DNA from: Diadema setosum
Taxonomy: Eukaryota > Echinodermata > Echinoidea > Diadematoida > Diadematidae
Assembly (NCBI RefSeq): GCF_964275005.1
Contig: NC_092685.1
Location: 12,874,571 to 12,938,570, forward strand
Reading direction: 5' to 3'
DNA: 64,000 bases
Part shown: piece by piece, positions 26,023 to 33,745 of the stretch
How the letters are laid out: the number at the start of each line of letters is the position of its first letter
Numbering within the stretch: the stretch's first letter is position 1
Position numbers and translations under genes: made by a program
The notes under the pieces: model-generated
The model's database searches: none
What the model was told of the DNA's origin: nothing
Seen by the model: only the letters and a program-made list of their open reading frames with translations

Positions 26023-26757
26023 TGTAAGAGTGCTGGTTTTACTGTGTTGGTAGCGTGGTGTGCACTCTTAACTACAGTATACGATGTCAAGCCGCAGTCG
26101 AACATTAGTTAATGCAGGAGACAAGGTGGTGGTTCCAAGACATACAACTTAGTTTATTAGATATAATGATCAGGAATTCCAGAATGGTGCATAACACTGA
26201 CGAGGGAATATTGTTGGTAGTATATATAAAGAATACTGTTCCACTCCTTCTTGGCACATGACCGAACAGAGTCGGGGCCGGAGTAAGATTGATTCCTCAA
26301 CTCCAGAAGCATAATATATATAGGGACATGAATAGAAGTTAAGAGATTAGTAGGAGAGGGTCTATGACATGGGGATTATAGGTTCATTGAACAGTACTGT
26401 GTAAGGGACTGGTGGTGGGAATTGTAAACACAGTTGGTCTGAATTTACTTAAACTTGATTGAGGACAAAGGGAAGGATTAACTATTGAGTAGAGATTAAC
26501 CAAAGTAATAACAAAGATGGTTGGGTTCTGAATGGAAGTTTCATTGGAGGTTTGATGGTCTTGTTAATAAAAGGATATGAGACTATAAAGCTGGGAAGTG
26601 TTCATAGGGTTTGGATTGGACTGGTCGTATATCTAGACAGTATAATTGGGGCAGGAAATGAGGATAAATTCTTAACTTGGTCAATCAAGAGACACTTATA
26701 AATTACATGAGGTTTGTTCTGTTTTAAGGTATAAACTCCCTATTTCTCCATCTTACA
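26023..26757 (-). repeat. 3' LTR (minus orientation)
   Basis: It begins TGTAAGAGTGCTGG and ends CATCTTACA. On the minus strand it has a TATATATA-type motif near 26315 and an AATAAA signal at 26153-26158. The adjoining internal sequence lacks an obvious polypurine tract. Confidence 0.92.
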
Positions 26758-28279
26758 TTCGTCCAATCTTTCAAAAAGAAACGTCCTCGTTTCATAATTA
26801 TATACTGCAATATTTAAAGAGTTCAAACGATTGACAAATGAAGAAATTCTAATACATTTACGGAGAGAAAAAAAAACTATAAAAAACACTGTTGACATGT
26901 AAACATAATAGAAATGATTGCTACACAAAACATAATCAAATTGAGTAGCATATTAATAATTAACAAATTAGTGAGATAATAAAAAAAAAGATTGATGTGT
27001 ACATAAATCTTGCAGATGAGGTATTAAAAAAAATCACCAAAGAAACCTATTTTTCAGGGAACATATCATTGTCTTGAGAGGTGTAGGAAAAACAGCATGG
27101 CCTACACATAGCATGCATAGTAACCAATACATACCGAGGTAACAATATACATTAAATTTAGAATGGAAATAAAAGGGATAGGAAAATAAGAGATCATCAT
27201 AGTAATCCACAAACTGTATGTAAAACTCAAAGAACAATCAGAGGTCCAAAATTTGACAAAAATCATATTACCATATGTTAAAAAAATACACTTAACATAA
27301 ATGACAAAACTACAAACTAGAAGAATACACTGATTGCATACATCTAGTCTTGTGCACAGCAAATATGTTGAAAAATGAACAGTATAATAAAAAAAAACAC
27401 TTAAGAAGAGGAACAGACAGAGGAGAAAGGAGAATGAAGCAATTAGATTAAATGACCTAAATTATACAGAGTTGGTGTCTTTGAAATGCACCATGAAAGA
27501 AACTTGTAAATAATGATGTTGATGAACAACATGTAAAAAGATATCTGGCATCAAGAGTAATTCAAATTGTGTAGATAATAATATTATGTATAAGAAAAAG
27601 CTGGGCAAACAACAGGACATTTATATGTGGTGAAAATGTGCATATACTAGACTGCAACAAGTTTACTAATTGTACAATTTTTTTTCCTATACAAAAGCAA
27701 TTGATCAGAAAAACAACATTTCTCACAAAAAATCTAAAGTTACAACCATACTTAACTAAAAAATTTATGCTAGAAAGTAAAAATACTTATTAATCATGTT
27801 ACAAAAATTCTTTCAGAAATTAAACACAATACACATGCTAACAATGAAAAACCTAAATACCAAATAATGCTACAAATTTACATCAGAAGTTAAACTGACA
27901 TTATTGTTGAGCAAGAAGCAGAAATCGGGATATAAAACGGTTAAGAAAGGGGCAATTGAACGTGACAGAGAGTGAGAAGGAAAAAAAGGGGAAAGTATGG
28001 ACAATGCAGAAAAATGAATGAACAGCCATGTGGGACGGGGAGGAGTGAGCAAAATATCATTGAAGGTACAAAAAGAATGTATAAAATAGAGATGACATTA
28101 AAAACAAAGTTTCACTACTAAGAAATAGGAATTCAAGTGCCCACGAATCGGAAGGGATAAGGGAACTTGCCATAACTGCTCAATGAGGTTTAAATAATAA
28201 ATGAGAATCTTGAAATTTGAAATTTGGAAGTAAAAGAAAACAGGTTCATTATATCCTGTCGCAAATATGACATCATAAA
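26758..28279. other. 3' noncoding part of the LTR element
   Basis: It is A-rich on the + strand with no ORF of note on the element's sense strand. It lies between the stop of the single ORF and the 3' LTR. Confidence 0.6.
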
Positions 28280-29860
28280 TTATGATGGATCATAATCAGT
28301 TGGGGGATTAGGAAGCTGACTGCCGTGTGTCCGAACACTATCGGCATGGATCACAGCGTGTGGATCGTAAAAGAGGTGTAATGAGGCAATGGACATGTGA
28401 GAGGGGACCACAGAGTCCAAATTCGTGAAGTGGCTGGGAGAGGGCCGAGGAGAGTGAGAATGGGGCAGAGATGGGGGAAGGGGCTGAAATGTGTGGGTTT
28501 GCAAGGAAACAGTACAGTGAGCTTGAAGAGGGGGTTGGTAGTCGGACAAATCAGGAGGAGAAGAGGTGGAGAAAGGGGTGGAACTGTCCGAATCAGTCCC
28601 AGTGGAAGATGATGTAGGGGCGTCGGAGTCAGAGTCAAGGGGAGGAATGTCGCAGTCAATAGAAAGAGGGGAAAGTGGGCTAGAGATGGGAAGAGTGCAC
28701 TTTAGAGATCGGATTGGAGTTGGGGGAGATGGGGATGAGGGGTGGGAAATCACTGCACATGTTTGTGGTAGTGAGGGAGGTGGAAAAACTGAGGTGCGAT
28801 ATGAATTACAGGCCTCACAGTGAGAGCAGAGGTCCGCAATGTCTTTGCGCATCCCATGCCAGTAGCAGAGCCCTTCGATAAGCTCAATTGTCTTGGCTGT
28901 ACCAAAGTGAAAAGCTGACATGGAAGTATGCATGACAGTCAGGACAGTAGGGATCACAGAATAGGGTATGACAATTTGTTCTATCATTATCCCAGAGGGA
29001 TGTCTCTTCCGCCGACACAACAATCCATCACGAATTACGAAACGCTCAAACTGATGCCGGAACTTGAACAAGCATTCCTCGTAATGAGGGATGGCCGATT
29101 TTGGGGGTACATATCCAGAACGGATCCAGGCAGTGACCTGCCGGATGATTGGATTCTGGTGCTGAGCCTGATGAAGGCGTACACCATGTTTTAACAGAAC
29201 ACTACAAAAGGAGGAAACGTTAGTAGGAGGAGCGGGAGGAGAGGGAGGAGATGAAATTGACGATGAATCGGCACATTCTGACGCCGATGAAGGAAGTGAA
29301 GCTACTTCAATCGGTACAACTGGTGATGGAGACAAGGGAGGGGATGGATTATGACCTCTGTCTATTGTTGAAGGGAAAGATGAAGATACAGGTAAATCGT
29401 CATGGCCGCCTTTGTAATGACCACCAGGAGAAGGAGGCGGGGGTGGAGAAGAAAGCTTTCTCACACCGGGGATATCATGTGGAGGTGGAGGTGAAGAATG
29501 AAGTCTGGTGGAGGTTGGAGAGAATGTATGGGGGCCATATCGATAATGACTTGAATCATCATAACGATGATCGTAACCATACCGACTGGTTGAAGAGATG
29601 GAGTGGTTAGAGTAGTTAGAGTAATGATCAGGGGAAGGAGAACGCGAGTGATAGCGATGATGTCGGGAATAGGAAGAACTGTAGTCATGAGAAGGAGAAC
29701 GAGGGCGATAGTGTGAATGAGAATGGGAGTAGGATGAATGGCGCTCCGGGGATGGAGAACGGGAGTGATAGGGGGAGCGATAGGAATGATAGGAGGGTGA
29801 ATGGGGTCGAAAACTGTGAGATCGTTCTCGAGAGTCATTATGATCCCGGGAAGAATACAT
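28280..29860 (-). CDS. LTR-element ORF: RS/His/Pro-rich region fused to an integrase H2C2 zinc-binding domain
   Basis: The open frame extends to 29923 (547 codons). The likelier start is the ATG at 29858-29860, after a T-rich leader, giving about 526 residues. In 547-numbering, residues 25-140 are rich in Arg, Ser, His and Tyr with many RSPSP repeats; 140-235 are Pro/Ser-rich. Residues 236-375 match the region before a Gypsy integrase: HQAQHQNPIIRQVTAWIRSG, then FVIRDGLLCRRKR, QIVIPYSVIPTVL, and the zinc motif H332-x6-H339-x26-C366-x2-C369 with YWHGM. From 385 it is again Pro/Ser/Thr-rich low complexity. The DDE core that normally follows is absent. It might act as a Gag-like or nucleic-acid-binding protein, which is inference. 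Confidence 0.85.
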   Translation of the reverse strand: MYSSRDHNDSRERSHSFRPHSPSYHSYRSPYHSRSPSPERHSSYSHSHSHYRPRSPSHDYSSSYSRHHRYHSRSPSPDHYSNYSNHSISSTSRYGYDHRYDDSSHYRYGPHTFSPTSTRLHSSPPPPHDIPGVRKLSSPPPPPSPGGHYKGGHDDLPVSSSFPSTIDRGHNPSPPLSPSPVVPIEVASLPSSASECADSSSISSPPSPPAPPTNVSSFCSVLLKHGVRLHQAQHQNPIIRQVTAWIRSGYVPPKSAIPHYEECLFKFRHQFERFVIRDGLLCRRKRHPSGIMIEQIVIPYSVIPTVLTVMHTSMSAFHFGTAKTIELIEGLCYWHGMRKDIADLCSHCEACNSYRTSVFPPPSLPQTCAVISHPSSPSPPTPIRSLKCTLPISSPLSPLSIDCDIPPLDSDSDAPTSSSTGTDSDSSTPFSTSSPPDLSDYQPPLQAHCTVSLQTHTFQPLPPSLPHSHSPRPSPSHFTNLDSVVPSHMSIASLHLFYDPHAVIHADSVRTHGSQLPNPPTDYDPS

Positions 29861-29923
29861 TGTGTTGAAAAAAAAAATATGTGGAAAAGAAGGAATATCA
29901 GTGTACAGAATCAATATAACCAA

Positions 29924-30865
29924 ATGTCTAGAGTAACAATGAGGGGAAAAAAACAGCCAACTAAAGATAAGAACACCAACTACAAATAAGATGGCAAAAA
30001 AATAAATATCTAAATGTTATTTACACAATGGTAACACAAAAATGTCAATCAGGCCACGTTACCTCAAGGAATTCAAGAGAAAAAAAATGTTACAATTATT
30101 AAGTGTATCTACAACACAGTGTGTTGTGTAGATGAATTGATTCAGGGATCAACATGATATGGTTCAAGAAAATTCCAATGCAATTCGAATGCAAACGAGG
30201 AGGTGGGAATGATAGTGTGTCCCAAATTAAAAAAAAATAACTCAATCAGTGAACTTAGCTGCAACCATTTAGAACTGGAATTATTATGCAGGGATGTGGA
30301 GAATCTGGAGGACACGTGTAGGAGGAACCAACATGGACGCCGTCTGATAAAAGATATGGAGGTAGTGGAGATCCTGATCAGGTAGATACGCCAATGAGCT
30401 GAAGACAGGCCGTGAGCGAGACAGAAGAAGATGATATAGGGTACAATGACATCAGATAGGATGAAGCATCTCACACCAGCACAGGATTCGATGACAAAGT
30501 AGATATAACTGGGCAGGCCACTAGCGATGGACGTTCCAAGAAAAAGAAGAGGGCAGAGGTAGTGCAGGTATGAAGGATGTCAGAGAAACTGGTAAAGGAA
30601 GCGTGCAGGCATCCACAATGCAATGTAGAAACTTGAGTTCTATATGCATATGTATATGGTAAAGTCACAAACAGCAAAGCGTCCACCGATTGCAGTTTTT
30701 AGGCGCTGACCATTACCCACGAGAAATGCAATGGAATCCGGCAGCTCACAAGGTGAAGGTGTGAAACAGGATTCTCCAAAAACACCAGGGCAGCAATGTT
30801 GATATAATGTAGAAAGATGAACTCACAAGTTCGATCTCCGAGCGGGAAGCGATGGCCCCAGTTTA
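29924..30865 (-). other. 5' leader of the LTR element
   Basis: About 0.95 kb lies between the primer binding site and the ORF. Small open frames on the minus strand (30142-30474, 30471-30686) show no recognisable domain. The length is enough for packaging signals, but none can be read directly. Confidence 0.5.
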
Positions 30866-30877
30866 CCGCTGCCACCA
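30866..30877 (-). promoter_or_regulatory. tRNA-Leu-type primer binding site
   Basis: On the minus strand, one base after the 5' LTR end, the sequence is TGGTGGCAGCGGT. It is complementary to the 3' end of animal tRNA-Leu (…ACCGCTGCCA plus CCA) over about 13 bases. The tRNA end is recalled from known leucine tRNAs. The position and TGG start are as expected. Confidence 0.75.
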
Positions 30878-30878
30878 C

Positions 30879-31613
30879 TGTAAGAGTGCTGGTTTTACTG
30901 TGTTGGTAGCGTGGTGTGCACTCTTAACTATAGTATACGATGTCAAGCCGCAGTCGAACATTAGTTAATGCAGGAGACAAGGTGGTGGTTCCAAGACATA
31001 CAACTTAGTTTATTAGATATAATGATCAGGAATTCCAGAATGGTGCATAACACTGACGAGGGAATATTGTTGGTAGTATATATAAAGAATACTGTTCCAC
31101 TCCTTCTTGGCACATGACCGAACAGAGTCGGGGCCGGAGTAAGATTGATTCCTCAACTCCAGAAGCATAATATATATAGGGACATGAATAGAAGTTAAGA
31201 GATTAGTAGGAGAGGGTCTATGACATGGGGATTATAGGTTCAGTGAACAGTACTGTGTAAGGGACTGGTGGTGGGAATTGTAAACACAGTTGGTCTGAAT
31301 TTACTTAAACTTGATTGAGGACAAAGGGAAGGATTAACTATTGAGTAGAGATTAACCAAAGTAATAACAAAGATGGTTGGGTTCTGAATGGAAGTTTCAT
31401 TGGAGGTTTGATGGTCTTGTTAATAAAAGGATATGAGACTATAAAGCTGGGAAGTGTTCATAGGGTTTGGATTGGACTGGTCGTATATCTAGACAGTATA
31501 ATTGGGGCAGGAAATGAGGATAAATTCTTAACTTGGTCAATCAAGAGACACTTATAAATTACATGAGGTTTGTTCTGTTTTAAGGTATAAACTCCCTATT
31601 TCTCCATCTTACA
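30879..31613 (-). repeat. 5' LTR (minus orientation)
   Basis: It matches the LTR at 26023-26757 along its full 735 bp. The differences I noticed are CTACAG versus CTATAG near its left end, and GTTCATTG versus GTTCAGTG in the middle. AATAAA on the minus strand is at 31009-31014. Confidence 0.92.
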
Positions 31614-31617
31614 CATC

Positions 31618-32810
31618 TTTGACGTAACTTCAGTAATCGTCTTATTGCGTTGTGTCTTCTGGTTGTCTTTTATAAATTACATTTTTTTTTATTCAGAGTA
31701 TGATTTTACCCATGATTTCTTGTGAAAAGTCGAATTTTCATTTCTTGTTCACCTGAATAAGTCATAGAATCAATAAAGAGAAATGAAAACTAAATGATGG
31801 TTCGTTGATTGCAATTATCCACTGTGATGGTGACGAAGTATGGTGTAAAGTAAAAAAAAAATAGATTTGAATACAAAACAAAGCATGATAAAAGATGATA
31901 AAACAAAGATGATTAAAAAATGCGGCAAAAAATAAAAACAATCGTAGGCAATTAAAGATCTCTTTACACGCGCACATAATATGCCTGCAGGTGCACGATA
32001 TAATATAATAATATGCCTGCAGGTGCACGAGACAGTGTGCTCCTTATGTTTCGCACAATATTGTCTCGAAATGCTCATTTATGTTTATGATAATAATATT
32101 GATAATAATACATACATACAAACATACATACATACGTGTTTACATACACATGACTTATTTTGCGTCAAATCCACTGCAGAATGCTCAAGGCGCATACAGC
32201 TACTGTCAAGGGAGTTTTGTCACTCATAACCAGAAACTGATATTTCTCTTTACCGCTTAGGTATAGTTTGTTTGTTTTTGTTTGCCTGTGTTTGCCTTTG
32301 TTTATTTTCACATTGAGTCTAGTTGGCGATATTCGGTGATCGAAACGCCATCGTGCGCATAATTATGAATTTCGAAAATTTGTTCACTCGTTTGTTGTCT
32401 ATCTCTGATTTAATGACATTTGGTTCATACATTCTCGAAAGTTAAAGACAACACAATAATCACCATAAACACCCATCTTAATTCTGTCCATACTTTTAAG
32501 TATAGCCTTTACAGACTTGTATTTCATCTCAAAGTTTAATAGAAAAAATCAAGAACAAAAGCAATCATTGAACTCGTGCATATCAGAAATCATGATCATG
32601 ACGATAAAATTATGAAATGATATAGGGGAGAGTGTGGAAGGTTATACTTCAATTCTGGAAAAGCTGATACACGCATGGTAATGATGACCAAGTTTTGGGT
32701 AACAGTTCCTATAAATTATGGAAATAACGGCGGTAAATATATCAGGAGCATCTTAAATATCTCCCCTTCACACTCCTTCCTATACCCCCCCCCCCTCTCT
32801 CTCTCACATA
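31618..32810. other. intergenic right flank of the LTR element
   Basis: No gene is seen. A small direct duplication of AATATGCCTGCAGGTGCACGA occurs at 31978-32030, and CATACATA repeats near 32110. Confidence 0.55.
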
Positions 32811-32854
32811 AATGATGATGATAATGATGATGATAATAATACTAATACTATTAT

Positions 32855-32890
<36 letters not shown>

Positions 32891-33015
32891 CAATAATAAT
32901 AATAATAATAATAATGATTATAATAAAGAAGATAATGGCTAGTTTTTATTCAGCTCATTTCACACTTGTTAAGTATCTAAATGCGCTTTACAGATTATCA
33001 TTACTCCGGTTACTG
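32811..33015. mobile_element. trinucleotide array with a retroposon-tail remnant
   Basis: ATG/ATA repeats (32811-32935) are followed by TAAATGCGCTTTACAGATT, a phrase shared with the tail-like repeat at 48180-48250 (AAATGCGCTTTACC). Such a repeat beside ATTTA..TAGCGC..GCGCTTTAC text is typical of LINE or SINE 3' ends in animals. The family is not determined. Confidence 0.45.
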
Positions 33016-33043
33016 GATACGTTATTTTCAATAAAACAACAGA

Positions 33044-33067
33044 TATATATATAATATATATATATAT

Positions 33068-33116
<49 letters not shown>

Positions 33117-33163
33117 TATGTTTCTTTTTTTTTGGGGATTGAGTCATTTCTTTATTCAAGAAA

Positions 33164-33201
<38 letters not shown>

Positions 33202-33240
33202 TATATACGTGTATATACATATATATATATATATATATAT
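33044..33240. repeat. (TA)n blocks
   Basis: Two long TA arrays (33044-33116 and 33168-33240) flank about 50 bp of ordinary sequence. They may have fold-back potential. Confidence 0.9.
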
Positions 33241-33745
33241 GTGCAGATATCTGTTGTTTTTATTATCATTTTAGTATCATTGCTATCATTGTTATAATTT
33301 ATAGTCATCAGTGTCATTACTACAATGAAACATCCCGAGCAAGCAAGTAAATCCTGATAGTGATAAGGGGAGGCACAAGTCATGTTCAACATGGTACAAT
33401 AGGGTCGGAACATTATGCATGCTGTGCTTCTGTACCCAGGACAGCACAAAATTATGTACACTGTGTACTGTAGGTCTCTCCCACCCACCTCCCTGGGTCC
33501 ACCGTATTCAGCTTTGTTCGATTGTGTGCACGTGAGCAATGTGTGATCAGGTGAAAGAAAAAAAAAATCCCATCATGTGTTTTTCTACCGTAGCCACACA
33601 ACCGTGTCTACGGTAAACGCGAGCGAGACTACATAGTGTTCCTGTCCTATGCACCGTGCTGACAGTAGGAATAGTCTTACTCAACTAGTCCATTTGAAGC
33701 ATTAGAGCACATACTCTTGACGAAGAGCCAAACACTCGAGTCGAA

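Follow-up and report, generated by a model that had tools for sequence, protein, structure and literature searches.

Two LTR retrotransposon families of Diadema setosum each keep an integrase-derived protein without a catalytic core

Introduction

Non-autonomous LTR retrotransposons with one open reading frame (ORF) are known as a kind, and non-autonomous LTR elements are usually seen as cis sequences that borrow everything. LARD, TRIM, and TR-GAG are types of such elements, and TR-GAG keeps one ORF. The element reported here has in common with these types LTRs, a putative primer site, a target duplication, and no reverse transcriptase (RT), but differs from TR-GAG and the other types in that its single ORF is integrase-derived and core-less and is not a Gag.

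Parts of Gypsy-type integrases are reused, with the HHCC finger kept, in the host genes GIN1 and GIN2 (PMC3424704) and in Ginger transposons (PMC2836005). According to passages of these two papers, the core region is also kept and the carriers are host genes or DNA transposons, whereas the gene reported here lies in a recently moving LTR element. LTR elements of bdelloid rotifers with a captured ORF3 likewise have an unusual extra protein, but gag and pol are still encoded in them as described in an excerpt of PMC5408684. When compared with the integrases of Gypsy/Ty3 elements, the present protein shows an HHCC domain that passes the Pfam cut-off, an extension-like linker, and, in one of two families, a GPY/F-like stretch, whereas approximately 90 residues rich in Ser, Pro, and Asp stand in place of the core and there is an additional low-complexity tail. 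No LTR element with a core-less integrase was found in the literature searched, which was largely that outside subscription journals. In the present case, two LTR families each keep one integrase-derived protein without a catalytic core.

Results

Structure of the element

The window, which is the whole stretch of 64,000 nucleotides of D. setosum contig NC_092685.1 that was analysed, contained a complete LTR element on its minus strand (Table 1). The first-pass annotation of this DNA had described near-identical LTRs around a single long ORF, and this was borne out by two LTRs of 735 bp with 2 mismatches and by an ORF that was the sole frame of at least 180 aa in the whole 64 kb. The LTRs had TG...CA ends, and a 4-bp target duplication, CATC, was present at both outer flanks. 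With its LTR pair, its duplication, and its recent insertion, the element is a young LTR retrotransposon.

Table 1. Positions of the LTR element and its parts within the 64-kb window
Feature	Position	Strand	Remarks
LTR element, whole	26023-31613	minus	5,591 bp; complete
5' LTR (TGTAAGATGG...CACTCTTACA)	30879..31613	minus	735 bp; 2 mismatches vs 3' LTR
3' LTR	26023..26757	minus	735 bp
Putative primer binding site region GTGGTGGCAGCGGTAAAC	30861..30878	minus	adjoins 5' LTR directly
Conserved stretch GAAACGAGGACGTTTC...GGACGAA	26758..26797	minus	before 3' LTR; common to family B
Untranslated leader, allele 1	29861..30860	minus	allele 2 at the same place in other family A copies and 10/10 family B loci
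ORF from first ATG	28280..29860	minus	526 aa and stop
Ser/His/Tyr/Arg/Pro-rich tail with RSPSP motifs	29471..29860	minus	aa 1-130; in-frame length variants in sister copies
Integrase N-terminal extension and zinc region	28745..29203	minus	aa 220-372; lowest pN/pS within the protein
Integrase_H2C2 (HHCC) zinc domain	28793..28966	minus	aa 299-356; Pfam
Ser/Pro/Asp-rich C-terminal part, family A	28283..28744	minus	aa 373-526; first ~55 residues common to family B

Thirteen bases of the putative primer-site core, TGGTGGCAGCGGT, which we presume to be complementary to the 3' end of animal tRNA-Leu, were found in 13/15 copies of the window element's own family (family A) and in 7/8 copies of a sister family (family B) among the copies displayed. 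The conserved stretch before the 3' LTR was 91% identical between families A and B over 46 bp, LTR start included, and is probably the plus-strand primer region. Membership of the Troyka superfamily, for which 3-bp duplications and CG...CG ends are given in an excerpt of PMC12440569, was ruled out by the 4-bp duplications and the TG...CA ends. Long simple repeats, including ATATAT tracts with arms that were 75-77% complementary, were observed at positions 32766-33280 of the window.

The encoded protein

The minus-strand ORF at 28280-29923 was open over the annotated 547 codons when counted from a TTG; the ATG at 29860 is the likely start, giving a protein of 526 aa. Pfam identified Integrase_H2C2 (PF17921) in this protein with an E-value of about 3e-14 (2.8e-14 at aa 299-356; 53.3 bits versus a cut-off of 25.5). 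The complete H-x6-H-x26-C-x2-C pattern that had been annotated was legible directly in the protein sequence, and a second CxxC (CEAC), three residues further on, fitted the zinc motif equally well. There was no other Pfam match to the window protein up to an E-value of 1, and none of the six other ORFs of the element had a match above the family cut-off, the best being DUF6933 at E 0.044. A protease, RT, and an integrase core, the absence of which had also been annotated, were not seen when the ORFs of the window element were searched with Pfam, and neither the window protein nor any of four family B proteins matched the rve core (PF00665) at an E-value of 1 or less. In the same Pfam searches, no other ORF of the element had a Gag match, and the proteins scanned showed neither a capsid nor a zinc-knuckle signature.

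The protein consists, in order, of the tail, a Ser/Pro-rich stretch, an extension-like linker, the HHCC zinc domain, and a Ser/Pro/Asp-rich end. The linker upstream of the zinc domain resembles, by eye, the N-terminal extension of integrases, and no match to a GPY/F domain was found in the family A protein. The window protein is thus an integrase without a catalytic core, joined to a low-complexity tail. Since Integrase_H2C2 was the sole match above its cut-off, the element is not an autonomous Gypsy/Metaviridae element.

The first-pass annotation had called the protein RS/His/Pro-rich. The tail is indeed rich in Ser, His, Tyr, Arg, and Pro, with one to three RSPSP motifs per tail (two or three in 18 of the 20 copies counted), but its RS character was not upheld: the first 130 residues contained 11 RS/SR dipeptides against a shuffle mean of 9.4, and 1590 of 5000 same-composition shuffles reached 11. 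Because this count was no higher than composition gives, we do not call the tail an RS domain. The net charge of the tail was +6 over 130 residues (His not counted). Its length varied by whole in-frame blocks of approximately 45-50 codons between subfamilies of A and B (29461-29599 and equivalents), and introns were rejected as the source of these variants because the differences were in frame and no GT...AG was seen at their borders by eye.

Copies in the genome and family A

One search of the genome (912.7 Mb, 102 contigs) yielded at least 51 matching pieces, and all 51 belonged to the window element or to 32 further stretches (L009-L040). These held at least 33 copies beyond the window copy (34 in total by reading), nearly all in two LTR families. 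Family A comprised the window copy, L009-L026, and the shortened copies L037-L039, and L040 was a diverged relative with a shorter LTR. Versions of 573 and 570 aa with an end as in the window protein were encoded by L023 and L025, respectively. The frame of L024 was open over 564 aa and had an altered end, and the ORFs of L022 and L026 were interrupted by nested insertions.

The two LTRs of a copy differed at 0-6 positions in 14/15 measurable copies (at 11 in L022), and differences this few indicate that each copy is young. An exact 4-bp duplication accompanied 13 of the 15 copies with two measured full LTRs, the exceptions being L025 and L037. A full pol in other copies had been named in the first-pass annotation as evidence that would speak against a protein kept for use; among the frames of L009-L036, by which this was judged, no full pol appeared, and the longest frame was the tail-zinc ORF, whole or broken. 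An open frame of 781 aa was noted on the minus strand of L038 (2167-4509), inside an interrupted family A copy, and its last residues look like what we take to be a non-LTR reverse transcriptase. Viral contigs (IMG/VR) were considered as relatives and gave four pattern matches, none of which was confirmed.

Sister family B

Family B comprised ten loci (L027-L036) with 11 copies, two of them in L031. Its LTR, of approximately 830 bp, was different from that of family A, and the LTR pairs were 98.9-100% identical in the eight loci with a single clean pair. The ORF was common with that of family A from its start to approximately 75 residues beyond the zinc domain. The domain is followed in family B by approximately 90 Ser/Pro/Asp-rich residues, the first part of which is common with family A, and then by a stretch like the end of a Gypsy integrase that contains KWKGPYR and NRLKPY. 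This C-terminal stretch matched MLVIN_C at E 0.0017-0.011 in 4/4 proteins scanned, all below the Pfam curated cut-off, and appears to resemble weakly a GPY/F domain, with the core again absent. Structure prediction of the integrase-like part reached a mean pLDDT of 35.8 and gave no usable model, and a comparison of PDB sequences with the alignment profile gave 0 matches up to E 1. The frame was open from ATG to stop in 6/11 copies (589-640 aa) and was not intact in the other five. The core-less integrase thus exists in two versions, of which the first-pass annotation had pointed out one. In L031 (3189-10000), two neighbouring family B copies were found, of which one is truncated, and a repeat of 1,947 columns had 99.7% identity.

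Frame conservation and selection

For the analysis of selection, set A consisted of the 14 copies whose DNA matched over the full length (the window copy and L009-L021), leaving out L022-L026 (two longer, one with an altered end, and two with nested insertions) and the shortened L037-L040, and set B consisted of the six of 11 family B copies with an open frame. The frame from ATG to stop was kept in 14/14 copies of set A (514-531 aa) with no stops or frame shifts, although the sets were picked for length or intactness, so that this count does not come from a random sample; this choice biases in-frame indels and pN/pS less than open-frame counts. All 6 distinct indels in the ORF of these 14 copies were multiples of 3, compared with 30/107 in the 1,450 bases downstream of the ORF and 9/46 in the 620 bases upstream, the latter count being too high because four copies have another leader allele. 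Substitutions relative to the window copy amounted to 2.4-5.0% in the ORF and to 3.3-8.5% downstream in 11 of 13 copies; the remaining two, at 17% and 34%, hold insertions, and nested insertions were seen in the flanks of L017 and L020. Because the divergence of the ORF far exceeds the differences between the LTRs of a single copy, it was built up over many rounds during which the frame was kept. The proposal that the element has kept this protein for use thus gained support, and random stops in sister ORFs, which had been named as contrary evidence, were not seen in the 14 full-length-match copies.

Pairwise dN/dS of the whole protein was 0.52 in family A and 0.42 in family B, and in the extension and zinc region it was 0.30 and 0.25, respectively, and 0.27 from A to B; the A-to-B value for the whole protein was 0.71, the C-terminal ends being unlike. 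Ratios below 1 across copies, as the annotation had anticipated, were thus obtained and were clearest over the zinc region. Site-wise pN/pS, in which each variable site was counted once and for which the p-values are guides only, as the copies are related and the numbers small so that independence is overstated, was 0.68 (p 0.008) in A and 0.57 (p 0.004) in B for the whole protein, 0.63 (p 0.03) and 0.78 (p 0.48) for the N-terminal part, 0.41 (p 0.01) and 0.28 (p 0.012) for the zinc region, and 1.02 and 0.59 (p 0.053) for the C-terminal part. The zinc region is under purifying selection in both families, and the C-terminal part of family A showed no residue-level signal of selection at 1.02. 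In the zinc region of family A, changes found in at least two copies gave 0.32 (p 0.02) versus 0.54 (p 0.2) for singletons, which fits copies being selected while they replicate and decaying once they are inserted; there was no such contrast in family B (shared 0.26, singletons 0.28).

Probable leader exchange and replication in trans

Two leader alleles were distinguished. Allele 1 was present in the window copy and in 11/18 of the loci L009-L026, and allele 2 in the A-type copies L009, L011, L018, L021, L022, L024, L037, and the shortened L039, and partly in L026. Allele 2 was also the leader of 10/10 family B loci, at 90-97% identity to that of L009. An allele common to A and B is most simply explained if RNAs of the two families were packaged together and the template was switched between them, and its presence in both LTR families suggests shared particles. 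Since no RT was seen in the element, its copies must need help in trans. L039 (4,230 bp) had lost the tail and zinc codons, and its LTRs were identical (0 of 735 positions differing) with a duplication of CTAC. This copy moved without the tail-zinc protein, which indicates that the protein, should it be required, need not come from the copy that moves.

In L040, pieces of a degenerate integrase core and C-terminal end (824-2164) lay directly before a short relative of the family A LTR, and an A-type leader and tail followed beyond this LTR. The rve fragment (E 0.0018) and the MLVIN_C match (E 0.0055) were both below cut-off, and the C-terminal stretch of family B had 40.6% identity with the L040 piece over 101 columns. 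L040 could consist of two elements in tandem or of one element that is permuted, and is a possible trace of a partner.

Discussion

The element seems to use its ORF while borrowing the remaining copying machinery. Recruitment of a partner integrase and substitution for Gag, the two roles put forward in the first-pass annotation, are conjectural. We tentatively favour, at somewhat less than even confidence, a young non-autonomous Gypsy-type LTR element whose core-less integrase acts in trans by joining the integration complex of a partner, with the tail as a handle. The RNA of the element would be copied and packaged by an autonomous partner, with RNAs of both families entering common particles, and the core-less integrase would be produced in the same cell. 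By way of its zinc and GPY/F-like parts, the protein would then associate with the partner integrase at the ends of the cDNA, as a subunit without catalytic activity, and the Arg/Ser/Tyr/His-rich tail would be used for import into the nucleus or for tethering to chromatin, so that more cDNA of the element would be integrated. Defective copies could profit too, since the protein is proposed to act in trans. What is conserved is the binding and multimerizing part of an integrase and not its cutting part, which favours a non-catalytic subunit or adaptor. In passages of the literature, multimerization is attributed to the GPY/F motif (PMC2836005), and binding of DNA or RNA is proposed for the HHCC fingers that domesticated integrase genes retain (PMC3424704). 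An RS-type host factor, CPSF6, is described in part of PMC8147801 as an import cargo of transportin-SR2 on which HIV-1 complexes depend to reach nuclear speckles. The analogy to the tail is a loose one, as CPSF6 in HIV contacts capsid, and one model in the same text dismisses integrase.

Should the protein function within the integration complex, the structural and catalytic roles of integrase would be separated in nature, and an element without enzymes could influence its own integration. A bolder form of this reading, which we regard as doubtful, is that these are LTR parasites with an integration adaptor of their own, the zinc and C-terminal parts of which enter the partner complex while the tail directs the cDNA into the nucleus or towards particular chromatin; at integration, the parasite would then be a competitor of its helper. 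Several results speak against an adaptor. The family A frame is open without a GPY/F-like stretch and with a C-terminal ratio of 1.02, the GPY/F-like match in family B is below the Pfam cut-off, dN/dS between the whole A and B proteins is 0.71, and RS/SR dipeptides are not enriched beyond composition. The non-intact 5/11 family B copies, the movement of L039 without the protein, the lack of a contrast between shared and single changes in the family B zinc region, the family B structure model at pLDDT 35.8 with 0 PDB matches, and the contact of CPSF6 with capsid point the same way, and the trans machinery of the partner is assumed. As the families are young and have many copies, the idea is directly testable.

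It is somewhat less likely that the ORF is useless to the copies and is refreshed from a partner, the selected tail and zinc parts of an autonomous element being recopied by template switching. The leader allele common to A and B makes recombination likely, and in L040 the core and C-terminal remnants and the leader and tail flank a short LTR, as would be expected of a tandem or permuted element with both. However, in L009-L036, with two types of LTR, the longest frame is a fusion of tail and zinc domain, intact or disrupted, and no pol frame was seen; the C-terminal end of family A is also open although it has no Pfam counterpart.

A Gag-like or RNA-binding role, in which the tail and zinc domain would bind the RNA of the element itself and bring it into partner particles or condensates, is unlikely. 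It would agree with the Ser, Tyr, His, and Arg content of the tail and its net charge of +6 (His not counted), with the DNA or RNA binding suggested for retained HHCC fingers in passages of PMC3424704, and with the lack of a Gag match in any other ORF of the element. Against it, Pfam showed no capsid or zinc-knuckle signature, selection was strongest on the integrase unit and not on the tail, and family B retains a stretch like the C-terminus of an integrase, which would not be needed for packaging.

We consider it quite improbable that the core-less integrase interferes, either by poisoning competing or partner integration complexes or by limiting copy number. Truncated Gag limits Ty1 in a parallel manner, and multimerizing parts without a catalytic core would have the classical dominant-negative form, but insertion of the element itself by the same partner should suffer too, and the copies are many and young.

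That the element is a plain deletion derivative, an internally deleted Gypsy element whose frame is open through chance and youth, is the least probable explanation by our estimate, since the youth shown by LTR pairs with 0-6 differences in 14/15 copies, the C-terminal ratio of 1.02 in family A, the 5/11 family B copies that are not intact, and a neutral simulation in which 51% of single copies stayed open at 1.5% substitutions are set against an ORF divergence (2.4-5.0%) far above the LTR differences and hence many rounds with the frame kept, 6/6 indels in frame, a zinc region ratio of 0.28-0.41, and a simulation at 3% substitutions and 0.001 indels per base that left 8% of single copies open.
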